NCBI RefSeq assembly: GCF_000166135.1
Contig: NC_014666.1
Location: 7,192,001-7,256,000 of the forward strand
DNA length: 64,000 nt
Direction of reading: 5' to 3'
From: Pseudofrankia inefficax
Lineage (GTDB): Bacteria > Actinomycetota > Actinomycetes > Frankiales > Frankiaceae
In this document: positions 33,720 through 46,205 of the stretch, piece after piece
Numbering within the stretch: the stretch's first letter is position 1
Layout: each line of letters starts with the position of its first letter
The notes under the pieces: generated by a model
The model's input: only the letters and a program-made list of their open reading frames with translations
Database searches by the model: none
What the model was told of the DNA's origin: nothing
Made by a program: the position numbers and the translations under genes

Positions 33720-34565
33720 TCAGCGGCGGCCGAGGGCGTAGCAGGCGATGGCGGCGGTGGCGGCGACGTTGAGGGAGTCGACGCCGGCGGCCATCGGGAT
33801 CCGGACCCGGCGGGTGGCCGCCGCCTGGGCCGCCGCGGAGAGGCCCTCGCCCTCCGTGCCGAGCAGGACGGCGAGCCGTGCGTCCGCCACCGGGCGGAGG
33901 GTGGCGAGGTCGGCGGCGTCGGCGGCCGGGGTGAGCGCGAGGGTCTCGAAACCGCGGTCGGCCAGCGTGTCGAGAGCCGCGGGCCACGGGTCGAGGCGGG
34001 CGTAGGGGACGGCGAACACCTCACCCATCGAGACGCGGACCGAACGGCGGTACAGCGGGTCGGCGCAGCGCGGGCTGAGCAGGATGGCGTCCATGCCGAG
34101 GCCGGCGGCCGAGCGGAACACAGCCCCCAGGTTCGTATGGGAGACGAGATCCTCCAGCACGAGGACACGCAGCGCCCACGAGAGCAGTTCGGCCGGGTCG
34201 CGGGCGGGATGACGGGCCATGGCCGCCAACGCGCCGCGATGCACCTCGAAGCCGGTGATCTTGGCCATCAGCTCGGGACCGGCAAGGTAGACCGGAACCT
34301 CGGGGCCTAGCTCGGCAGGGACGGCGTCGAGCCGGTTCGGTGAGACCAGCACGGAACGCGCCCGGTATCCGGCCCGCAGCGCCCGCTGGATCACCCGCTC
34401 GCCTTCGGCGATGAAGAGCCCCTCGGCCGGCTCCTTGCGCCGTCGTAGCACGACATCGGTCAGGGCGACGTAGTCGGCGACCCGCGGGTCGGCCGGATCA
34501 TCGACCGGGATGATCGTCAAGGCTATCGAGGCAGGCAGCGGGTCGGGCGGCATCGATGCCGTCAT
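33720..34565 (-). CDS. SpoU/TrmH-family RNA 2'-O-methyltransferase
   Basis: The 281-residue protein has an N-terminal RNA-binding substrate domain and a C-terminal SPOUT domain. The three SpoU motifs are visible: SHTNLGAVFRSAAGLG, LLGTEGEGLS and IPMAAGVDSLNVAATAAIA. It methylates a 2'-OH in rRNA or tRNA using SAM, and position specificity cannot be told. A second Met four codons in is an alternative start. It is divergent from the amidohydrolase gene with only 35 bp between, so promoters overlap coding regions. Confidence 0.9.
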   Translation of the reverse strand: MTASMPPDPLPASIALTIIPVDDPADPRVADYVALTDVVLRRRKEPAEGLFIAEGERVIQRALRAGYRARSVLVSPNRLDAVPAELGPEVPVYLAGPELMAKITGFEVHRGALAAMARHPARDPAELLSWALRVLVLEDLVSHTNLGAVFRSAAGLGMDAILLSPRCADPLYRRSVRVSMGEVFAVPYARLDPWPAALDTLADRGFETLALTPAADAADLATLRPVADARLAVLLGTEGEGLSAAAQAAATRRVRIPMAAGVDSLNVAATAAIACYALGRR

Positions 34566-34600
34566 GCGGCCGTAATCCCAGGCCAGCAGAATCGGCGCTC

Positions 34601-36037
34601 ATGACCGCGCAACCGGGTGCCCCCTCTCCCACCGCCGACCGGCCCGCCGACCTGCTGGTCGTCGGGGCCGAGCTGGTTGCCACCGTCGACGCGGAGCGCC
34701 GGGAGTTGCCCGGCGGCTGGGTGGCGATCACCGACGGGCTGGTGAGCGCCGTCGGTGCCGCCGGCGACCCGCCGCCGCGGGCCCAGCGCACGGTGCAGGC
34801 CGAGGGCTGTCTCGTGACCCCCGGACTGGTCAACACGCACCATCACATCTACCAGAACCTGACTCGAGCCTTTGCGCCGTCGCTGCACGGCACACTCTTT
34901 CAGTGGTTGTCCACGCTGTACCCACTGTGGTCGCGGCTGGACGAAGAAGCGGTCAACGTCTCGGCCTATGTCGGGCTTACCGAGCTGGCTCTCGGTGGCT
35001 GCACGACCTCGACCGATCACCTGTACGTCCACCCGAAGGGCGGCGGCGATCTGATCGGGGCGGAGATCGCCGCCGCGCGCGAGCTGGGCATGCGGTTCCA
35101 CCCGACACGCGGGTCGATGTCACTGTCGCAGAAGGATGGTGGCCTGCCGCCCGACTCGGTGGTGCAGGACCCGGACGAGATCCTTGCCGAGTCGGCCCGG
35201 CTCGTAGCCGCGCATCACGACCCGTCTCCGGGCGCGATGGTGCGGATCGCGCTCGCGCCCTGCTCGCCGTTCTCCGTCAGCCCGGAGCTCATGAAGGCGA
35301 CAGCCGAGCTGGCCGAGCAGCTGGACGTCCGGCTGCACACCCATCTGGCGGAGGATCCCGAGGAGGACGAGTACTGCCTCGCGGTCTACGGCCGGCGGCC
35401 CATCGACCACTTCGCCGAGGTTGGCTGGGGCGGGAGCCGGGCGTGGGTAGCGCACTGCGTCTGCCCGAACGAGGCGGAGGTCGCCCGGTTGGGCGCCTGG
35501 GGTACCGGAGTGGCCCACTGCCCCAGCAGCAACATGATCCTGGGCGGTGGGCTCGCGCCCATCCGGGAGTTCCGGGCCGCCGGGGTTCCGGTCGGCCTGG
35601 GCTGCGATGGGTCGTCGTCGGCCGACTCGGCCTCGCTGTGGATGGAAGCGCGCAACGCCATGTTGCTGGGCCGGCTGCGGCACGGGTCCGCGTCGATGTC
35701 GGCCCGGGACGCCTTGGAGATCGCGACACGCGGTGGCGCGGGCTGTCTGGGCCGGGTCGGCGAGATCGGGGAGCTTTCCGTCGGTTCGGTCGGCGACCTG
35801 GTCGTCTGGCCGTTGACCGGAGTGGCCTTCGCCGGTGCGCTGTCCGACCCGATCGAGGCGTGGCTGCGCTGCGGCCCGGTCGCCGCGCGGCATACGGTCG
35901 TCGCCGGGAGGCTCGTCGTCGAGAACGGGCTTCCAACGCATCCCGCGCTCGACGAGATGCTGGCCCGGCACCGCTCCATCGCTGGCGGGATCCAGGCGGC
36001 CGTCGAGGACGCCGGCCCGCTCCCGGCCCGTGCATGA
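34601..36037 (+). CDS. 8-oxoguanine deaminase-type amidohydrolase
   Basis: The 478-residue amidohydrolase has metal and active-site motifs THHHIYQNLTRA, HTHLAED, HCVCPNEAEV and GCDGSSSAD. The HHHxYQ wording is typical of 8-oxoguanine deaminase and the related hydroxydechloroatrazine hydrolases. The predicted reaction is deamination of 8-oxoguanine (giving urate) or guanine-like purines. Adenosine deaminase follows 76 bp later, and a purine-degradation locus lies 7 kb away, which favours a purine substrate. The ATG immediately after the divergent SpoU start was preferred over an upstream TTG/ATG-like frame. Confidence 0.85.
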   Translation: MTAQPGAPSPTADRPADLLVVGAELVATVDAERRELPGGWVAITDGLVSAVGAAGDPPPRAQRTVQAEGCLVTPGLVNTHHHIYQNLTRAFAPSLHGTLFQWLSTLYPLWSRLDEEAVNVSAYVGLTELALGGCTTSTDHLYVHPKGGGDLIGAEIAAARELGMRFHPTRGSMSLSQKDGGLPPDSVVQDPDEILAESARLVAAHHDPSPGAMVRIALAPCSPFSVSPELMKATAELAEQLDVRLHTHLAEDPEEDEYCLAVYGRRPIDHFAEVGWGGSRAWVAHCVCPNEAEVARLGAWGTGVAHCPSSNMILGGGLAPIREFRAAGVPVGLGCDGSSSADSASLWMEARNAMLLGRLRHGSASMSARDALEIATRGGAGCLGRVGEIGELSVGSVGDLVVWPLTGVAFAGALSDPIEAWLRCGPVAARHTVVAGRLVVENGLPTHPALDEMLARHRSIAGGIQAAVEDAGPLPARA

Positions 36038-36093
36038 CCGGCCGGTTCCCGATGCGTGACTGGCCCGGTCCCGGCCCGTGCGTGACCGGCCGG
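36021..36093. repeat. Short degenerate tandem repeat between deaminase genes
   Basis: Three roughly 24-bp units share the core CCCG-TGCRTGACYGGCC. The first and third are 25-bp copies with a single mismatch, 48 bp apart. The first unit spans the stop codon of the amidohydrolase gene. This is probably a local duplication by slippage. Confidence 0.6.
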
Positions 36094-36113
36094 GACAGGC
36101 GAGGATGACGGGC

Positions 36114-37184
36114 ATGGGCACCAGCACGACCGAGCCGCTGACGCTGGCCACCGCACTCGACCTGTTGCCGAAGGTGGAGCTGCACTGCCACGTCGAGGGC
36201 ACGATGCGGCCGGGAACGGTCCTCGAACTGGCCCGACGGCACGGGTTGACGCTGCCGACGGAGAACCTGGACGAGCTGTACTCCTACGGCTCGTTGAACG
36301 AGTTCCTGGCCATCTTCTGGCTGGTGCAGTCGACGCTGGGCGGACGTGACGACTGGGCCCGGCTCGGCTACGAAAGCGTGGTCGACGCCGCCGGGCACGG
36401 CCGGGTCTACGCGGAGATGTTCTTCACCCCGGCGCGGCACCTCGAGGCCGGTCAGCGGCTGGCCGACATCGTCGCCGGGCTCGCCGCCGGGATCGCCGCG
36501 GCTGAGGCGGAGACCGGCTCGAAGGCGATGCTCATCGCGGACATCGACCGGGCGTTCGGTCCTGGGCCGGGCCTTCAGCTGGTGACCGAGTTGGGCGAGC
36601 TACGTCGTTCGGGCGCTCCAGGCATCGAGCGCGTACTCGGCGTCGGGATGGACTCCACCGAGCTGGGCGTCGACCCGAAGTCGTTCGCCGAGGCGTATCG
36701 GACCGCCGCCGGCTTCGGCTTCCGGTTGACCGGGCATCAGGGCGAGAACTCGCCTCCGTCGGCCATCGCCGAGGTGGTCGACGTCCTCGGCGCCGAACGC
36801 ATCGACCACGGTCTCTCCCTGGTCGACGACCCGGCGCTGGTCCGCAGGTTCGCCACCGAGCGGATCCCGCTCACTGTCTGTCCGAACTCCAACATTCGCA
36901 TCGCCAACGCGTTCCCGACGCTGGCCGCCCATCCGTACCCGAAGATGCGCGAGGCCGGCCTGCTGGCGACGCTCAACACGGACGACCCGGCCATGACCGA
37001 CCTGGACCTCGGCTACGAGTACTTCTCGGTCGCCGAGGCCTTCGGCTACCGGTTCGACGACATGGTCGGCATCGCGCTGGACGGCGTCGAGGCAACCTGG
37101 CTCGACGAGACCGGCAAGCGCGACCTGCGCGACCGCGTCGTCGCGGAGGCCTCGACCCTGTCCGCGCGCCTGGAGAAGGCCTGA
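36114..37184 (+). CDS. add: Adenosine deaminase
   Basis: The 356-residue protein has the zinc motif HCHVEG, HQGE for the catalytic Glu (usually HAGE), RIDHG, and LNTDDP (usually STDDP). It converts adenosine to inosine. The start is chosen because GAGG lies 9 nt upstream; an ATG 9 bp earlier abuts that site. The HQGE and LNTDDP variants are seen in actinobacterial members and in 6-aminodeoxyfutalosine deaminases, so that alternative role should be kept open. It follows the oxoguanine-deaminase-type gene in the same direction. Confidence 0.85.
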   Translation: MGTSTTEPLTLATALDLLPKVELHCHVEGTMRPGTVLELARRHGLTLPTENLDELYSYGSLNEFLAIFWLVQSTLGGRDDWARLGYESVVDAAGHGRVYAEMFFTPARHLEAGQRLADIVAGLAAGIAAAEAETGSKAMLIADIDRAFGPGPGLQLVTELGELRRSGAPGIERVLGVGMDSTELGVDPKSFAEAYRTAAGFGFRLTGHQGENSPPSAIAEVVDVLGAERIDHGLSLVDDPALVRRFATERIPLTVCPNSNIRIANAFPTLAAHPYPKMREAGLLATLNTDDPAMTDLDLGYEYFSVAEAFGYRFDDMVGIALDGVEATWLDETGKRDLRDRVVAEASTLSARLEKA

Positions 37185-37185
37185 C

Positions 37186-37509
37186 CTAGATCTGTGGCGC
37201 CAGACCCGGCCGCGCTGACGTCGTGATCTGCGCCGGGGGAACCGGCGACCCCGCCGACGCATGCCTGGGAGCCCCGCCAAGCAGCACGACGATCACGATG
37301 ATCGTCGTGAGAAGGGCGCAGGCAAGCGCCAGGACCGGTCGTACCAGTGGCGCGATGACCTCCCACGCCGCGCGCAGGAGACGGATCAGCACCATCGCGG
37401 CGATCAGCGCCATCACCAGCGCGAATGCCGTGGCCCCATCGCCTCCGGACCGGCCCATCGACTCGACCGGAGCGGCTGTGAAGAACGACTCTGCCAGGTT
37501 CACGTCCAT
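37186..37509 (-). CDS. Small two-TM protein of the mirror cassette (copy 1)
   Basis: The 107-residue protein has a first TM segment AFALVMALIAAMVLIRLL, then a short loop RAAWEVIAPLVRP, then a second TM segment LALACALLTTIIVIVVLL, and a Pro/Ser/Ala tail. The same pattern, including the GG-rich start, Arg-x2-Trp loop and RP before the second helix, is present in the 114-residue protein at 42442. Both are divergent from a 352-residue XRE regulator at nearly identical distance. The function is unknown. It converges on adenosine deaminase with 1 bp between stops. Confidence 0.75.
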   Translation of the reverse strand: MDVNLAESFFTAAPVESMGRSGGDGATAFALVMALIAAMVLIRLLRAAWEVIAPLVRPVLALACALLTTIIVIVVLLGGAPRHASAGSPVPPAQITTSARPGLAPQI

Positions 37510-37897
37510 GCTTTCCGTGCTCCACCCATCTTCTATGACACGCCGCCGGGCGGCCGCGTCGTCAGTGCGGTTCCATCTCGCCTCCGGCCTTGGCACCCGA
37601 GGCCCAGCTGCCCCATTCATCGGTCGCTTCCAGGAAAGTCCCCAGGCGGTTGTTCCAGACACCCGAAACGAAAGGGAAGCCGAACAGGGTGGTGCACGAA
37701 GGTCCAGGTGTTCCGTATCTGACACACGGTCGCCGGGAGTGGGGCGAACCGTTGTCCAACCCGGTTCAGCCGGTCCACGACGGGCTGTCGGCGTCAACGT
37801 CTAAGTCGGCCACCCGACTGGTGGGGCCTAATACAGGCCAAACGGTCCACGTTGGGCTACCATGGACTCCACTGGGATCGCCCGGGAGGGGGTCGGC
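37510..37897. promoter_or_regulatory. Divergent control region of mirror cassette 1
   Basis: The 388-bp gap between the two-TM gene and its regulator matches the 387-bp gap of cassette 2. It contains a direct repeat CGGTCCACGnnGGGCT (37771 and 37843) and an inverted pair GAACCG/CGGTTC (37746-37767, 10-bp spacer), both possible operator sites. An upstream in-frame ATG at 37862 precedes the chosen regulator start. Site assignments are by eye only. Confidence 0.4.
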
Positions 37898-38956
37898 GTG
37901 TCTCCAGCTCAAAGACGGACGCCACTCGCCCGACGTCTTCGAGAGCTGCGAACCACTCATTTGCCTCGGCAGCTGACTCAGGCGACGCTCGCCAGGCTCC
38001 TCCTCGTCGCGGAGACGACCGTGTCGAGCTACGAGACCGGGCAGGCCTCGCCCGGCGACGACAAGCTCCGCACCTATGCCAGTTTCTTCGCGACGCCCCG
38101 TTCCATCGCCAATGGCCAGGTACGCGTTCTGGCCGAGGAGGAGCTCTCCGCCGACGAGCGCCATGGGCGCGACGTGCTCCTTCTGGAGCTGAGGCGGTTA
38201 CGCGACCATGGAGCGCCGGCACACGCGCGCGCCCGCCGACGGACCTGGCACTTCCCCGACGACACTCCTATACGACTGGTGTGCGGCAAGATCCCCTCGG
38301 AAGACGTCTCGCGGCTGGCCGATCCACGCCACCCCAACTTCACCCGGCTCCTGGGCTATGCCGACCTCGACCCCATGGTCGAGCTCTTCGGCCACATCCG
38401 CGCCGAGAACCCCACCACCGACGTCCGCTTCATGCAGCCTGACGACATGTCCGACGACGACTTCTCCCATCACGTGGTCGCCGTGGGCGGACTCGAGTGG
38501 AACGATATGACCGAGTCCTTTCTGAGCGAGCTCGAGGATCTACCCGTCAAGCAGATCGGGCACCGGGACTTCCCTGACGGTGAAATATTCGTCGTAAAGC
38601 CATCCGACGGCAGCGAACGCGTGGAATACACACCCCATTACCGGGCCCAGCTTAACAAGGGAGCAACGTCCCGGTATGTCGAGGACGTCGGGTATTTTGC
38701 CCGGGTGCCGAACCCGTACAACATGACCGCCACGCTCACCATCTGCAACGGAGTTCATTCGCGCGGCGTCCTGGGTGCGGTACGCATGTTCACTCACGCA
38801 GTTCTTCGCGAACGGAACGAGGAGTATCTCGCCAGCCGTTTCGGCGACGCACCGCGGTATGGCATGCTGTTCCGGGTCCCGATCAACAACGGGAAGACCG
38901 TGACTCCCGACCTCAGCAACCCAAAGATCAGACTCTTCGAGTGGCCAGAGGAATGA
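37898..38956 (+). CDS. XRE-type regulator with conserved C-terminal domain (mirror cassette 1)
   Basis: The 352-residue protein has an N-terminal Cro/C1-like helix-turn-helix (LTQATLARLLLVAETTVSSYE), an acidic middle (AEEELSADERHGRD), and a C-terminal domain of about 220 residues. That domain begins RRTWHFPDDTPIRLVCGKIP and ends with PNPYN…LTICNGVHSRGVLGAVR and GKTVTPDLSNPKIRLFEWPE. The gene at 40996 encodes a paralogue of exactly the same length with these motifs conserved. The GTG start has a GGGAGGGGG site and aligns with the paralogue start; an ATG 36 bp earlier lacks one. The C-terminal domain looks like a nucleotide- or ligand-binding sensor, but I do not recognise its family. A GNAT gene follows. 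Confidence 0.82.
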   Translation: MSPAQRRTPLARRLRELRTTHLPRQLTQATLARLLLVAETTVSSYETGQASPGDDKLRTYASFFATPRSIANGQVRVLAEEELSADERHGRDVLLLELRRLRDHGAPAHARARRRTWHFPDDTPIRLVCGKIPSEDVSRLADPRHPNFTRLLGYADLDPMVELFGHIRAENPTTDVRFMQPDDMSDDDFSHHVVAVGGLEWNDMTESFLSELEDLPVKQIGHRDFPDGEIFVVKPSDGSERVEYTPHYRAQLNKGATSRYVEDVGYFARVPNPYNMTATLTICNGVHSRGVLGAVRMFTHAVLRERNEEYLASRFGDAPRYGMLFRVPINNGKTVTPDLSNPKIRLFEWPEE

Positions 38957-39090
38957 GCGGGGCCGGACTACTCCGCCCAGTCAGCTGACGCCCCCACGAA
39001 GCGCCGGCCACCGTGACGAGGCTTACCCAGTCGGATACACCGAGGGGTGGCGGCCCACGGCGGCCCCCGGTTCGCGCCGGTCTGTAACGG

Positions 39091-39651
39091 ATGAACCGGA
39101 CAAGCGAATCTGCCACCGTGGTAGTGGTGACCCACAGCTTCGAGATCCGCACGCTCGAACACGGGGAGTGGGCCTTGCTCCGTCAGCTCCGGCTGCGGGC
39201 ACTGCGAGAGGCTCCCGAAGCCTTCGGCCCGAGCGTCAGACGCGAACGTCTACGCACCGCTTCCTATTGGCACGAACAGATGAACCTCTGCCGCTGGTTC
39301 GTCGCCGAAGCCGGCCGCGGCCAGATCGGGTTCGCCGCGGGATCGGCGCCCTTGGCCGATCACGTCGACGAACGCCACCTCCTCAGCCTCTGGGTCTCAC
39401 CAGACTGGCGACGACGCGGGGTGGCCCGCCAGCTCATCGAGGCGGTCGCCAGCTGGGCCGCCGCAGACTCGGCCCGGTCGCTGTCACTCTGGGTCTTCGA
39501 GCAGAACAAGGCGGCCATCAACGTCTATGAACGACTCGGCTTCACCGGGACCGGGCACAGCAAGCCCTTCGACAGCCGCCAGGAGATGCGCATGATCATG
39601 AGCGTCCTTGGCCGGCGGCCAGAAACCGGAACCCACCCAGCCGAGTTCTGA
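39091..39651 (+). CDS. GNAT family N-acetyltransferase
   Basis: The 186-residue single GNAT domain has acetyl-CoA motif A at LLSLWVSPDWRRRGVARQLIEAV and motif B at LWVFEQNKAAINVYERLGF. It transfers an acetyl group to an amine on an unknown small molecule or protein. The start is uncertain: the ATG has no obvious ribosome-binding site, and GTG codons 33-36 bp later are possible. It lies 134 bp after regulator 1 in the same direction and faces the glycosyltransferase of cassette 2. Confidence 0.85.
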   Translation: MNRTSESATVVVVTHSFEIRTLEHGEWALLRQLRLRALREAPEAFGPSVRRERLRTASYWHEQMNLCRWFVAEAGRGQIGFAAGSAPLADHVDERHLLSLWVSPDWRRRGVARQLIEAVASWAAADSARSLSLWVFEQNKAAINVYERLGFTGTGHSKPFDSRQEMRMIMSVLGRRPETGTHPAEF

Positions 39652-39744
39652 CCGCCATCGGGCGACGGCACCGCGGGCGCGGCCGGGCCGTCGCCCGAAG
39701 GCCGACCACCGACGCCGCCGAAGGCTGGAGGACGAGTCAGGGCG

Positions 39745-40992
39745 TCAGCCGCAAACCAACGCGTCCAGTTCGGCCACCGGCGCGGGCTCGGCCGCGGGCT
39801 CGGCCGCGGGCACAGGCTCGGCCAACGAGCAGTCGTTCTGCTCGCCGATGGAGATCGCCCGGCCGGAAAGGTCCAGCTGCGCGAGTCCGTCAGCCAGCGT
39901 CTGGCACTGGGCGAATCGCGTGCGTAGCTCGCGCCAGTCGGCCAGGTCGTCCCGCCACCGTCGCAGATAGTCCTCCAGCTGCGCGGCCTGGATGTTCGCC
40001 CGGCTGCGTTCCGCGGCGGCCAGCGCGGCCAGCGCCCGCGTCGTCACCGGTCCCGGCAGTTTTTGCGTCTCCAGCGTTTCCGCGGCAGCGGCGATGAAGA
40101 CACGGCGGCTCTGCAGGAACTCCCGCCAGTAGCCGACATTCGCGTCCGCATCGGTGAGGTCGAGGTGCCGCAGCGTCCACAGTCCCTCGGCGAGGATGTC
40201 ACCGAACTCCTCGGCCGCGGCGCGCTGCGGGTCCGCGAACGGCTCGTATTCGAGCTGACGGACCGTCCCGGTCGCTCCTAGTCGGCCCCGCGCCAGGGGA
40301 TCGTGGAAGAAAAGCCAGTCCTCGTTGTAGACGCGCGGAAAGAATCCCAGCGTCTTTGTCGGGTCGAGCACGGCCGCTGAACCGCTGACGAATACACCCT
40401 GGCTGCCACCCGCCAGCCGGTTGGCATGACAGACCACGGAGTTGTCCGGAAAGCTCCTCGCGACCATGCCGACGATGTCGAAATGCGCGAGCCCGGCGGT
40501 CGCGCGCAGGACGAGCTCCGGCCGCACGTCGCGGATGTCGTCGTCCAGGAACAACAACGACCTCCAGCCGGCGGCGGCGCCGAGCAGGAGACCGAGATTC
40601 CGTTTCAGGCTCAGGTCGCCCAGATGCCGGGGCACGGCCGCTGCCACCGCCGAGGTCCGGAAGTCGTCCAGCCAGCCGCCCCGGTAGGTGCTCAGGTCCA
40701 GGACGGTCGCCCGGAGGTCCGGCACCTCTCGCGCGACCCCGGCGACCTTCCTCACCTCGGCGTTCCCGCTGCACATCGCCACAAGACGGGCGCCGACGGC
40801 GGTAGCCAGTTCCATCGAGGCGACGAGGCTGTAAGCCGGACGGGAGGCCGGTACGACGATCGCGTCCAGCCGCGCGGCTCTGCCCGGGCCGCACCACTGC
40901 AGCAGATCGCGGTGGGAGGTCCGATGGTCGATGGACGAGTTCCCACTACCGGGTCTGTCGCCGATCTCCTCCGGCCCTTCGACCTCAGCCAC
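39745..40992 (-). CDS. GT-A fold glycosyltransferase-like protein
   Basis: The 415-residue cytoplasmic protein has a GT2-like N-terminal half: VVPASRPAYSLVASMELA, then RNLGLLLGAAAGWRSLLFLDDDI, where DDD is the expected metal-binding DxD. NEDWLFF follows about 95 residues later. The C-terminal 130 residues are helical and end in a low-complexity PAAEPAAEPAPVAE tail. It probably transfers a sugar, substrate unknown. It starts with GTG 3 bp after the stop of regulator 2, so the two are co-transcribed. Confidence 0.75.
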   Translation of the reverse strand: MAEVEGPEEIGDRPGSGNSSIDHRTSHRDLLQWCGPGRAARLDAIVVPASRPAYSLVASMELATAVGARLVAMCSGNAEVRKVAGVAREVPDLRATVLDLSTYRGGWLDDFRTSAVAAAVPRHLGDLSLKRNLGLLLGAAAGWRSLLFLDDDIRDVRPELVLRATAGLAHFDIVGMVARSFPDNSVVCHANRLAGGSQGVFVSGSAAVLDPTKTLGFFPRVYNEDWLFFHDPLARGRLGATGTVRQLEYEPFADPQRAAAEEFGDILAEGLWTLRHLDLTDADANVGYWREFLQSRRVFIAAAAETLETQKLPGPVTTRALAALAAAERSRANIQAAQLEDYLRRWRDDLADWRELRTRFAQCQTLADGLAQLDLSGRAISIGEQNDCSLAEPVPAAEPAAEPAPVAELDALVCG

Positions 40993-40995
40993 GGA

Positions 40996-42054
40996 TCAGG
41001 TCCCTTCCGGCCATTCGAAGATGACCGAATATGTGTTAACGAGATCCGGGGTGACGGTCTTCCCTCTGTGCACCGGGACACGCATCAACACGCCGAATTC
41101 GGGAACATCGCCAAATTTATCTAGGATGTGCTGCTCATTCCGATCCCGGAAATTAGCGTCGGTAAGGCAGCGCACAGCACCCAACACCCCACGGGAATAC
41201 ACGCCATTGCAGATGGTCAGGGTACGCGCCTGGTTATACGGATTAGGCGTCCTGACCAGCAGCCCGACATCCTCTACGAGAAGCGAGTCAGTGGTCTTGG
41301 GGTAATGGCGGGTGGCTTTGTCGCCGCGCCGCGTCTCGAAGACCTCACCGTCGGGGTACGCCGGGTCCTCGACCTGCACCACAGGGAACGAAGTCTGCCT
41401 GTTGTACCACTCTGTCGACTGGTTCCAGCCGAGGCCCCCGAGTAGCACGAGGTGGGCGGACAGGTCGTCCGAGGTGATGTTGGCCGAGGTTAAGAACCGC
41501 ACGTCGAGAGCAGGATTCTCCGCCCGGATATGGCCGAACAACTCCACCAACGCGTCCACGTCCGCGTACGTGAAAAGCTCCGTGTAGTTGACGCTGTCGG
41601 CGAGGCCCATCCGTGGTCGCGCGGCCGGCGGGATCTGCCCGCAGATGATCCGGACGGGCGCGCCGTCATTGAAGTGCCAGGTACGGCGTTGCGAGGCGCC
41701 CGGCAGGGACGCCAGACCTGGAACTGACGCGGGTTCCGGCGCCGGAACCGCCGCGTCCGCGAGAAGCGCCTTCAGCTCGGCGAGCAGGTCGTCCCGCTCG
41801 GTCCGTTCCTCGTCGGTCAGTTCCTCTTCGTCGGCGAGCCGCGGTTGGGCCTCTGTGTCCGCCCGCGGCGCGGCATGCAACCGGGCATACGCCGCGAGCC
41901 TGCCGACCGGGACTCTGGCGACGTTCTCGTCGGAGGAGACGGTCGCCACCGAGACGCCGAGCGCCTTGGCCACCATCGACTGCGACAGCCGCGGTTCGCC
42001 AGACTCGCGTAGCTGCCGAAGCCGGCCGGCTAGCTGCGCGTTTGGGTGGGACAT
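40996..42054 (-). CDS. XRE-type regulator with conserved C-terminal domain (mirror cassette 2)
   Basis: The 352-residue paralogue of the regulator at 37898 has a weaker helix-turn-helix (LSQSMVAKALGVSVATVSSDE) and an acidic LADEEELTDEERTERDD segment. The same C-terminal domain follows: RRTWHFNDGAPVRIICGQIP, YADVDALVELFGHIRAENP, PNPYNQARTLTICNGVYSRGVLGAVR, GKTVTPDLVN…FEWPE. The ATG start is preceded by GGAGGAGGTGG and aligns with the paralogue; a GTG 21 bp upstream is the alternative. It heads an operon with the glycosyltransferase and is divergent from the two-TM gene at 42442. Base composition at its 3' end is AT-richer than neighbours. Confidence 0.82.
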   Translation of the reverse strand: MSHPNAQLAGRLRQLRESGEPRLSQSMVAKALGVSVATVSSDENVARVPVGRLAAYARLHAAPRADTEAQPRLADEEELTDEERTERDDLLAELKALLADAAVPAPEPASVPGLASLPGASQRRTWHFNDGAPVRIICGQIPPAARPRMGLADSVNYTELFTYADVDALVELFGHIRAENPALDVRFLTSANITSDDLSAHLVLLGGLGWNQSTEWYNRQTSFPVVQVEDPAYPDGEVFETRRGDKATRHYPKTTDSLLVEDVGLLVRTPNPYNQARTLTICNGVYSRGVLGAVRCLTDANFRDRNEQHILDKFGDVPEFGVLMRVPVHRGKTVTPDLVNTYSVIFEWPEGT

Positions 42055-42441
42055 CAGGGGTTCCACCTCCTCCACCTGTATTCACTGAACTTCAGCGCCA
42101 GCTTGAATCTGTGAACCAGCGCAGCCTAGCAGTCGAACCCCCAGACAACCATACGGGACAGTGCGTGCCGCGACGGTTTAGGCATTGGTTTGTTGGGGAG
42201 TTGGCCTTAGAGTGATTTGTACCCCCACTCGACTCTAGGAGTCATAGGGTGGGACTTCAAGATTACAGCTTGATACAGCTGAAGTCGAGAGAATCACCTG
42301 GAGGTGGAGTCCAGCTAGGCCAGAACGCAGAACACCCCTGGCACACCGTTGCCGCGATGTACCAGGGGCGTCTTTCAAACCGGGCGCCTGTCCGTCCCCG
42401 TAGCGCAAGAGCAAACAAACGCACTTGAACGGAGGTAACCC
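42055..42441. promoter_or_regulatory. Divergent control region of mirror cassette 2
   Basis: This 387-bp region is notably less GC-rich than its surroundings. It holds an inverted pair TTCACTGAA…TCTGTGAA (42081-42115), a tandem TACAGCTTGA/TACAGCTGAA motif near 42266, and a small CCCCTGG/CCAGGGG hairpin near 42336-42362. These are candidate operator or leader structures for the divergent regulator and two-TM genes. None is matched to a known protein. Confidence 0.4.
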
Positions 42442-42786
42442 ATGTCCAGAGTAGCGCCGCCGGTACTGCCGGTAAATGGCCTGCTAGCGCAGGCCGGCAC
42501 CGGTAGCGGTGGCGGTGGCGGCCTCGTCCTGGCCGTCATCGTGACCATCGGAATCTTCGCCCTGATGACCTTGCTCGCCCGGCACATCCGGTCGATGTGG
42601 CAGCTCGCCCAGACGTTCCTGCGGCCGATGATGTCAGCCATCAAGACGCTGATACTGGTCGGTCTCATCTGTGTCGTCGTCTTGATCGAAATGGCGCGGT
42701 CGGCCACCGGCCACGCGGCGATCGGCCCACCGGCCCCAGAGGCAGCCGGAGTACGGCCCGCGCCCGTCCTTCGCAGCCTCACTTGA
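42442..42786 (+). CDS. Small two-TM protein of the mirror cassette (copy 2)
   Basis: The 114-residue protein starts behind GGAGGTAACCC. A Gly-rich stretch leads into a first TM helix (LVLAVIVTIGIFALMTLLA). A loop RHIRSMWQLAQTFLRP follows, then a second TM helix (TLILVGLICVVVLIEMA) and an Ala/Pro tail. The layout matches the 107-residue protein at 37186. It is divergent from the cassette 2 regulator and followed by a perfect 17-bp hairpin, so it is a single-gene transcript. The function is unknown. Confidence 0.78.
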   Translation: MSRVAPPVLPVNGLLAQAGTGSGGGGGLVLAVIVTIGIFALMTLLARHIRSMWQLAQTFLRPMMSAIKTLILVGLICVVVLIEMARSATGHAAIGPPAPEAAGVRPAPVLRSLT

Positions 42787-45473: not shown

Positions 45474-45815
45474 TCAGCTGCCGCGGTAGGAGGACAGCCC
45501 GTAGGGGGCGAGCAGCAGCGGGACGTGGTGGTGCGCCGCCGGATCGTCGATGTTGAAGGTGATCGTCACCTCGGGAAAGAACGACGAGCGTTCGGCGGTG
45601 TCGAAGATCAGCCGCCACCGGCCGGGGGCATCCGCCGGAAGCGTGGCGATCCGGCCGTCGGCGTCGGTCTCGGCCTCGGCGACCAGCCTCCAGCCCCTCG
45701 GCTGGCCGTCGAAGCCCAGGATGATCTTTTCGAGGCGAACCGCGATGCCGGCCGCTGGCCGGCCGGCTCCGGTGTCCAGCACGTGGGTGGACAGCGACAT
45801 CTGGCCCTCACTCAT
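45474..45815 (-). CDS. uraH: 5-hydroxyisourate hydrolase (transthyretin-like)
   Basis: The 113-residue protein has the diagnostic N-terminal STHVLDTGAGRPAAG and C-terminal YRGS motifs, plus HHHVPLLLAPYGLSSYRGS carrying active-site His and Arg/Ser. It hydrolyses 5-hydroxyisourate to OHCU, the step after urate oxidase. OHCU decarboxylase is present as a fusion 4 kb away, but no urate oxidase is seen. A Met 5 codons downstream is an alternative start. The LuxR-type regulator is divergent. Confidence 0.95.
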   Translation of the reverse strand: MSEGQMSLSTHVLDTGAGRPAAGIAVRLEKIILGFDGQPRGWRLVAEAETDADGRIATLPADAPGRWRLIFDTAERSSFFPEVTITFNIDDPAAHHHVPLLLAPYGLSSYRGS

Positions 45816-46205
45816 CGGCGGGCCCCGGCGGCCGCCCATCCGCAGTATCTGGCCGCATCCGGTACGCGGCCCCTCACCCCTGCCGGGAGGCACCAATGTG
45901 GCACCACCGAGTAACGAACGTGAAACGTCGAGGCGCACGCGACGGGGCCGGCGTCACCGCCGCCCTCGCCCGGGACCACAGGCAGGCCGGGCAGGAACAG
46001 GCAGACGTCCCGAAACGGGCCCATGGACGATGCCAACCGGTCCCCCGCCCACCGCCACACACCCGGTTCGTCGCCGTCATCAAACGGCCACAGGGCGTCT
46101 ACTATGCGCCGTACCCGCATGCGGCCGTATTCGGCCTAATCCGGGGCGGGGGACGCAGTTTGGGGGTGAGCGACGGGCCGGAACAGAGTGGGCTGAGGCG
46201 GCGGC
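45816..46205. other. Divergent intergenic region uraH / LuxR-type regulator
   Basis: About 390 bp that should carry promoters for both directions. A GGCCGTATTCGGCC palindrome lies near 46122-46135, about 70 bp before the regulator start, and is a candidate operator. No gene is supported here. Confidence 0.4.

Follow-up and report, generated by a model that had tools for sequence, protein, structure and literature searches.

The window analysed, a 64,000-nucleotide stretch of the Pseudofrankia inefficax genome, carries two head-on copies of a conserved locus in which a gene for a small membrane protein (S) is divergent from a regulator gene (R), itself followed by a gene for a GT-A-fold enzyme (GT), with or without an acetyltransferase gene (GNAT). 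In the first copy, S1 (37186..37509, minus strand) encodes a 107-aa protein with two transmembrane (TM) segments and is divergent from R1 (37898..38956, plus strand), which encodes an XRE-type helix-turn-helix (HTH) with a C-terminal domain of ~230 aa and has no GT behind it. The second copy consists of GT (39745..40992, minus strand), R2 (40996..42054, minus strand), encoding an XRE-type HTH with a C-terminal domain predicted to adopt a fold like those of BcsB and glycosidase N-domains, and S2 (42442..42786, plus strand), encoding a 114-aa two-TM protein and divergent from R2. A GNAT gene (type GNAT-A, 39091..39651, plus strand; Pfam Acetyltransf_1, 9e-19) lies tail-to-tail with the GT-R2 pair. 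Immediately upstream of R2 is a putative operator (42073..42097, core TTCACTGAA), with a weaker, inverted operator-like second copy on the S2 side of the gap (42278..42294), and the S2 leader contains a G+C-rich hairpin (42332..42371, plus strand).

The observations of the preliminary description were confirmed as a whole: both regulators are 352 aa long, each is divergent from a small two-TM protein (R1/S1 and R2/S2) across gaps of 388 and 387 bp, and the GNAT and a GT that starts three bases past the R2 stop codon lie between them. R1 and R2 are 46% identical over 355 columns (E 1e-94) and share the distinctive C-terminal motifs listed there. Its interpretation fared unevenly. An undescribed, recurring pairing with a flavour of surface modification stands, while the swappable cargo and the strict geometry do not.

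Linkage and history of the locus

A class-wide sample of 393 genomes contained 10 with R and 9 with GT; 8 carried both. Within one actinomycete family the system occurs in 72 of 341 sampled genomes (about a fifth, weak matches included), and it is also present in the atypical Frankia genus. A family common throughout the phylum was rejected, as strong matches in a sample of 296 genomes were confined to the window's own genome, three others giving weak ones (E 5e-7 to 1e-8). No relatives were found in plasmids (R and GT searched), phages (R searched) or viral contigs (R and GT searched), and on this ground a mobile or phage origin was also rejected. This bacterial gene set is undescribed, and no publication on this locus was among the literature matches listed.

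The cassette idea withstood the check that the preliminary description set for it, as a divergent two-TM gene is present at most R genes and the S proteins are homologous. Of 65 R genes, 44 have such an ORF (less than 260 aa, with two hydrophobic peaks); applied to 542 other genes of these loci, the same rule picked up 19, several of which are S genes viewed from a different gene of the cassette. A previous control, smaller and based on almost the same rule, had 2 positives out of 145, one of these being S1 itself and the window genes being counted twice, since locus L019 lies inside the window. Of 67 R genes, 57 are followed on their own strand by GT, 55 of them at a distance of no more than 100 bp; this count takes a locus with a 195-aa GT fragment (L140) as having GT, and the stricter cut-off applied to S linkage takes it as lacking one. 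The 67 include the weak loci L143 and L144, which are outside the 65, and 14 located places were left out of the analysis (G443:C558, G687, G422, G408, G521 and nine rows with E 6e-10 or worse).

The presence of S tracks GT and not R by itself: S was found at 48 of the 56 R genes that have GT and at none of the nine that lack it (Fisher p 8e-7, without correction for relatedness; a single R' clade accounts for five of the nine). No S was detected at eight R-GT loci, one of which stops at a contig edge while another is a second tandem copy. The ten R genes with no downstream GT comprise five R' loci (L025, L053, L136, L137 and L141), where no S was found, together with L091, which is a second tandem copy, L099, L142, L143 and L144; in the last of these, GT is weakly matched on the other side of R, upstream. 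In L053, whose R' has the same C-terminal domain as R, a GT25-family protein (Pfam) follows the regulator, and the enzymes of L025 and L136 cluster with it. It is only in this distant R' branch that an alternative enzyme was seen; elsewhere a single GT-A family follows R and the differences within the genus are losses, which disposes of the swappable cargo. Nor is the geometry strict, the R-S gap of relatives ranging from ~190 to more than 1000 bp and R ORFs being mostly 340-410 aa.

A GNAT, on the same strand, follows immediately in 34 of the 57 R-GT loci; all 34 fall into a single sequence cluster, represented in the Pfam search by one member. The Pseudofrankia GNATs are just distantly similar to those of family f17 (three of six found, E 2e-7 to 4e-7), and for this reason the GNAT position may, judging by sequence, have been filled more than once. 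In L018, GT is fused to a hexapeptide acyltransferase.

The same locus position is kept in seven members of Pseudofrankia, and the six genomes of the genus with R each retain one or more copies of R, GT, GNAT and S. Both R-GT pairs are retained in G005, GT1 is missing from G000 and G002, and GT2 from G006; G003 has no R1-GT1, G001 has just a fragment of R2, and G004 has fragments of GT and GNAT only. R1 groups with members of the genus (G001, G002, G005 and G006). The place of the window GNAT is shared by G002, G003, G005 and, as a fragment, G004. G005 carries two GNAT types, and comparison with it assigns the window GNAT to the type that is tail-to-tail with GT-R2; the alternative that this gene is the tail of an R1 operon was thus rejected. 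The type associated with R1-GT1 is gone from the window, and no GT1 remnant was found there between R1 and GNAT. Variation within Pseudofrankia reads as loss, a doubled locus shedding redundant copies, and the window is such a doubled locus that has lost its first GT.

Putative operators and leader hairpin

Putative operators of the form TTCAnTGAA sit between R and S. The exact sequence TTCANTGAA occurs 21 times in 37,287 upstream positions versus twice in 935,833 positions elsewhere. As the sites of the operator matrix were picked by score, only scans with a matrix from which the clade had been left out count as a test. The matrix trained without this genus gives a single match above 8 on both strands of the window, the operator in the R2-S2 gap (score 23.2), and it finds this gap in all five genomes with a full or nearly full R2. 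The second copy is a 17-nt arm that is 82% complementary to positions 42080-42096; it scores 9.1 with the full matrix and does not exceed 8 with the clade-left-out one.

With the latter matrix, no operator match was found in any of the five R1-S1 or R1 gaps. A weak match (8.2) occurs at the S1 start in G001, and stray matches outside the gaps occur in L020 (15.7), L023 (8.1) and L024 (9.3). The R1-S1 gap of the window yielded no operator, just a near-repeat of 16 nt at 37771 and 37843. A hairpin pattern of the S2 type occurs in the upstream regions of 17 of 55 S genes and in 25 of 815 others, an enrichment that is partly circular, the pattern having been written after the leaders of the window and a few others were viewed.

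Protein families and predicted folds

Both regulators belong to the XRE family, each having at its N-terminus a lambda-repressor-like HTH that scores over the threshold of Pfam (HTH_31, cut-off 27 bits; R1 30.7 bits, E 4e-7; R2 36.4 bits, E 7e-9), and XRE structures are also among the fold matches of the R model. The C-terminal part matches no Pfam family. Its modelled fold resembles the flavodoxin-like unit of BcsB, the N-domains of GH67, GH84 and GH115 glycosidases and a Methanococcus S-layer domain (Z 8.6-10.3), and the first 17 matches all belong to these groups; the best BcsB match is 9fmt_A (Z 10.3, rmsd 3.3, 163 residues aligned), followed among glycosidases by GH67 (Z 9.9), GH84 (9.1) and GH115 (9.0). 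The best Foldseek E-value is just 2e-3, and hhalign of R against E. coli BcsB, the sole profile tried, revealed no significant sequence similarity (P 0.036, probability 1.4%). In other proteins, which are extracytoplasmic or carbohydrate-active, units of this fold serve as accessory domains, whereas R combines it with a domain that binds DNA. A BcsB-like fold is by itself no proof of sugar binding. The fold is otherwise seen in carbohydrate-handling proteins, and the domain is proposed to sense a sugar, which might be a nucleotide sugar, a precursor of a glycan or the product made.

GT matches no Pfam family. Its model (pLDDT 78.8) is nearest to the GT75 NDP-pyranose mutase MtdL (Z 18.6), with mannosyl-3-phosphoglycerate synthase (15.6) and rice UAM2 (15.2) next. 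In 66 sequences, the columns of DDDI 150-153, Y222, N223, D225 and W226 are 97-100% conserved (E224, between them, less than 90%). Within this set, the DDD motif (D150-D152, 98-100%) occupies a place equivalent to that of MtdL, with which GT shares the GT-A fold (excerpt of PMC9937993). GT differs from MtdL in having conserved CHA.R and YN.DW motifs, no match to PF03214 (RGP) and a catalytic half that is unaligned by sequence. The GT tree was built with the quick version of the method.

S1 and S2 each have two hydrophobic segments, with a basic loop between them in S1; S proteins were called by a hydrophobicity rule rather than by a curated predictor. Their direct similarity is weak (19 of 58 identical, E 1e-5, one-sequence search), but the two are linked as homologues through relatives, the S protein of L024 matching both window S2 (40%, E 3e-18) and the S1 of G001 (31%, E 1e-7), which is 58% identical to window S1. 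Homologues of S2 are present in G002, G003 and G005. The loop is net positive in 54 of 55 S proteins and should therefore face the cytoplasm, which would place both termini outside (N-out/C-out). S evolves fast (dN/dS 0.17-1.1, some pairs using over-long ORFs), with values of 0.67 for S1 against G001 and 0.17 for S2 against G002.

The nearest pairing of an XRE regulator with a small protein in actinomycetes is that with DUF397. DUF397 is not known to be a membrane protein, whereas S carries two TM segments and matches no Pfam family significantly. In XRE-DUF397 pairs such as Scr1/Scr2 of Streptomyces, DUF397 follows the regulator (excerpt of PMC6262351), while here S is divergent and it is GT that follows R.

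Proposed function and alternatives

A probable role of the locus is to control the modification of a sugar on the cell surface. More specifically, we regard it as an even call whether it is an autoregulated, sugar-sensing envelope-glycosylation locus in which S is the membrane partner of GT. R would act as a self-regulating XRE-type regulator that binds the TTCAnTGAA operators and whose C-terminal domain senses a sugar ligand. Since these operators precede both the R-GT operon and the divergent S gene, GT and S would be made together. GT, a GT-A enzyme, would be anchored or assisted at the membrane by S, a GNAT or hexapeptide-type enzyme would then acylate the sugar, and the output, on demand, would be a modified membrane- or envelope-linked sugar.

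A narrower version is more doubtful, and we offer it tentatively: R would respond to the sugar that its GT produces and co-control S through the shared operators, forming a novel type of self-regulated switch for glycosylation, with a Dpm2/Dpm3-like two-part membrane glycosyltransferase held under feedback from its product. Dolichyl-phosphate mannose synthase is a GT-A enzyme with tiny membrane subunits, Dpm2 and Dpm3. The likeness to this synthase (excerpt of PMC7728079) is one of analogy only, and S is divergently transcribed.

S could instead be a membrane-bound anti-regulator that sequesters or signals to R rather than an enzyme subunit. Where S is present, the two genes are indeed divergent around shared putative operators, but the lack of a detectable S at all nine R genes without GT makes this role unlikely. 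The same observation, which fits a GT partner better, bears on a module for conflict or defence, with S as a holin-like toxin or pore that R silences and with GT and GNAT as modifiers of a target. Small two-TM proteins are common as effectors, S evolves quickly, and the locus shows patchy gain and loss. Holin matches of three S proteins are also consistent with this scenario, though all are below Pfam cut-offs: Phage_holin_3_6 in window S2 (9.9 bits against 28.4, E 0.97) and in another protein (E 0.07), and Holin_BhlA (E 0.15), the best scores among six further S proteins being 13.6 against 28.4 and 12.4 against 22.6. PADLOC added a weak match of S2 to the type III membrane protein Mem_04 (E 0.07). 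Its remaining matches, of R1 and R2 to RmrA, HTH_VI and mad1, are through the HTH only, with none for GT or GNAT and none significant outside the HTH. Together with the lack of plasmid, phage and viral relatives in the searches above, the N-out/C-out topology implied by the basic loop and the constant locus position within the genus, this makes a toxin distinctly improbable, and nothing was found that points to a conflict role.

As for the enzyme, GT might be an NDP-sugar pyranose-furanose mutase like MtdL rather than a transferase, the locus then supplying furanose sugars. MtdL tops the fold matches, the DDD motif is equivalently placed and there are weak profile matches in the N-terminal half. 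Catalysis in MtdL involves an autoglycosylated Arg (R159), Asp260 and a Mn-binding His287 (excerpt of PMC9937993). However, the hhalign alignment covers just 91 columns and ends at the DDD motif, so the catalytic Arg and His of MtdL could not be placed in GT; PF03214, unmatched by GT, is also absent from the window's own genome. A mutase is held to be quite unlikely.

The sugar-sensing glycosylation locus proposed here brings together four linked parts with no family name in the libraries searched, namely the sensor domain of R, GT, S and the operator. The operator provides an immediate handle on the regulon, and the fold of the sensor hints at ligand candidates. If S is indeed the membrane subunit of GT, the locus would represent a compact bacterial two-part membrane glycosyltransferase under direct sugar control.

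Cassette organization and decay within Pseudofrankia

Two head-on copies of a cassette lie in the window, each pairing a regulator (R) with a small two-TM protein (S) that is transcribed divergently from it. The regulators R1 (37898-38956, + strand) and R2 (40996-42054, - strand) are each 352 aa long, combine an XRE-type HTH with a common C-terminal domain and are 46% identical. Their partners S1 (37186-37509, - strand) and S2 (42442-42786, + strand) are separated from them by divergent gaps of 388 and 387 bp, respectively. Between R1 and R2 lie a GNAT acetyltransferase (39091-39651, + strand) and a GT-A-type enzyme (GT; 39745-40992, - strand) that begins three bases past the R2 stop codon. 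With R2 as the query at E 0.01, the host genome (one contig of 8,815,781 bases) yielded the R1 and R2 places only. The surroundings of the cassettes (34556-37184 and 45474-45938) resemble a purine-breakdown region (amidohydrolase, adenosine deaminase and a 5-hydroxyisourate-hydrolase-like ORF, as judged from sequence).

R is present in six of the eight genus genomes examined, including that of the window (G000), and the same genes flank the locus in these six and at the decayed locus of G004 (seven genomes). The fullest locus, in G005, consists of R1-GT1-GNAT facing a second GNAT, followed by opposite-strand GT2-R2, plus S2. Judged from sequence, the loci of the other genus members are reductions of a G005-like form. 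GT1 is absent from G000 and G002, GT2 from G006 and R1-GT1 from G003; a fragment of R2 remains in G001, while G004 holds GT and GNAT fragments only. A stop codon interrupts R2 of G006, and R2 of G003 has one close to its end. Divergent S genes are kept at 7 of the 10 genus R genes, the exceptions being R1 of G002, R1 of G005 and R2 of G006. Because the R1 and R2 groups are separate in the R tree, both with good support, the copies look old and redundant; redundancy is also suggested by all six R-bearing genus genomes having kept, despite these losses, one or more copies each of R, GT, GNAT and S.

Occurrence and gene associations beyond the genus

In a class sample of 393 genomes, R was found in 10, GT in 9 and both in 8, the mismatches being the decayed GT-only locus of G004 and two loci (G016, G341) of a distant R branch, R'. 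In another actinomycete family (f17), R occurs in 72 of 341 genomes, weak matches included. The same cassette was recovered from L018, a Pseudonocardiaceae MAG locus, where GT is fused with a hexapeptide acyltransferase. Among 67 R genes (60 fetched neighbourhoods and loci L018, L025, L051, L052 and L053), 57 have a same-strand GT downstream, one of them a fragment, and in 55 the GT lies within 100 bp of R; a GNAT of one cluster directly follows GT in 34 of the 57. The main groups agree between the R tree and a GT tree built by a quick method.

At 44 of the 65 better R genes there is a divergent ORF showing two hydrophobic peaks, versus 19 of 542 other genes under the same rule, and four further R genes with a third peak in this ORF bring the S total to 48. 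All 48 belong to the 56 R genes that have GT; at the nine R genes lacking GT, no S was found. Of 55 S proteins, those of Pseudofrankia counted, 54 have an inter-helix loop with a net positive charge; by the positive-inside rule, such a loop would lie in the cytoplasm.

The R' proteins have the C-terminal domain of R and a different N-terminal part. R' is followed by a GT25-family enzyme at L053:9291-12702, with which the enzymes following R' at L025:5677-9643 and in L136 cluster. At L053 and L025, R' also has for neighbours a hexapeptide acyltransferase and a protein that, on its sequence, is alpha/beta-hydrolase-like. S was sought beside R' genes and not found.

Predicted operators and the S2 leader

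The predicted R site is TTCAnTGAA. Across 75 regions spanning -450 to +60 relative to R, exact TTCANTGAA occurs 21 times in 37,287 positions (18 of the 75 regions), versus twice in 935,833 positions elsewhere in the same loci. Predicted sites concentrate in two places, one by the R start and one some 150-250 bp upstream of it, toward S. With a clade-left-out matrix, trained on 65 regions outside Pseudofrankia, the sole hit scoring above 8 in the 64-kb window falls in front of R2 (42073-42097, score 23.2); a second, weaker inverted operator-like copy lies at 42278-42294. Because this matrix also matches the R2-S2 gap in the four other genomes with a full or nearly full R2, and gave no hit in the five R1 gaps scanned, R2 and S2 seem to share a predicted operator and R1 seems to have diverged. 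A weak hit (8.2) was found at the S1 start in G001, and loci L020 (15.7), L023 (8.1) and L024 (9.3) each have one stray hit away from the gaps. Such shared predicted operators say that R would co-control GT and S.

The R1 gap, devoid of the common operator, contains a 16-nt near-repeat at 37771-37786 (CGGTCCACGACGGGCT) and 37843-37858 (CGGTCCACGTTGGGCT), the second copy bordering a stretch upstream of R1 that is conserved among relatives; this is perhaps an R1-specific site.

The S2 leader contains a G+C-rich hairpin (CACCCC..GGGGCG; 42332-42371, + strand), possibly an attenuator. Similar patterns occur in 17 of 55 S upstream regions; among other upstream regions the count is 25 of 815, and among random windows 122 of 4000. 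The pattern was chosen partly after examples had been looked at. Its covariation score was equalled in 0 of 500 shuffles and its three doubly changed pairs in 152 of 500, so that pair counts are mixed.

Folds and proposed function

R2 was modelled from eight sequences (mean pLDDT 75.8). Its C-terminal domain is alpha/beta, with BcsB as the best fold match (Z 10.3, rmsd 3.3, 163 residues). Next come GH67 (9.9), GH84 (9.1) and GH115 (9.0), and an S-layer anchoring domain from Methanococcus reaches 8.6; Foldseek E-values are weak (2e-3 at best). E. coli BcsB and R have no significant sequence similarity; a GG loop and a PYN...RG stretch line up. The modelled domain suggests that the R ligand may be a sugar. 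Further hints at a sugar role are the GT-hexapeptide acyltransferase fusion of L018 and the GT25-family enzyme that follows R' in L053.

For GT, modelled from six sequences (mean pLDDT 78.8), the closest fold match is MtdL (Z 18.6, 259 residues), ahead of mannosyl-3-phosphoglycerate synthase (15.6) and rice UAM2 (15.2). MtdL is reported to interconvert NDP-pyranoses and NDP-furanoses, and its DDD motif, Arg159, Asp260 and His287 to be important (PMC9937993). The DDD motif is present in both enzymes, but the second half of GT does not align with MtdL in sequence. Since, in addition, a PF03214 search with GT gave no match, GT is placed as a GT-A enzyme outside named families. We infer sugar transfer by GT; with MtdL as its nearest fold, it is also possible that GT is a mutase. 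Two other roles are possible for S, that of a toxin and that of a signal to R; as judged by gene neighbourhood, S is associated more closely with GT than with R.

In the simplest account, to which we give an even chance, the cassette is a sugar-responsive envelope-glycosylation locus. R would sense a sugar ligand and bind the predicted operators, controlling GT and S together, the product of GT would be an envelope glycosylation, and S would contact GT and aid it at the membrane.
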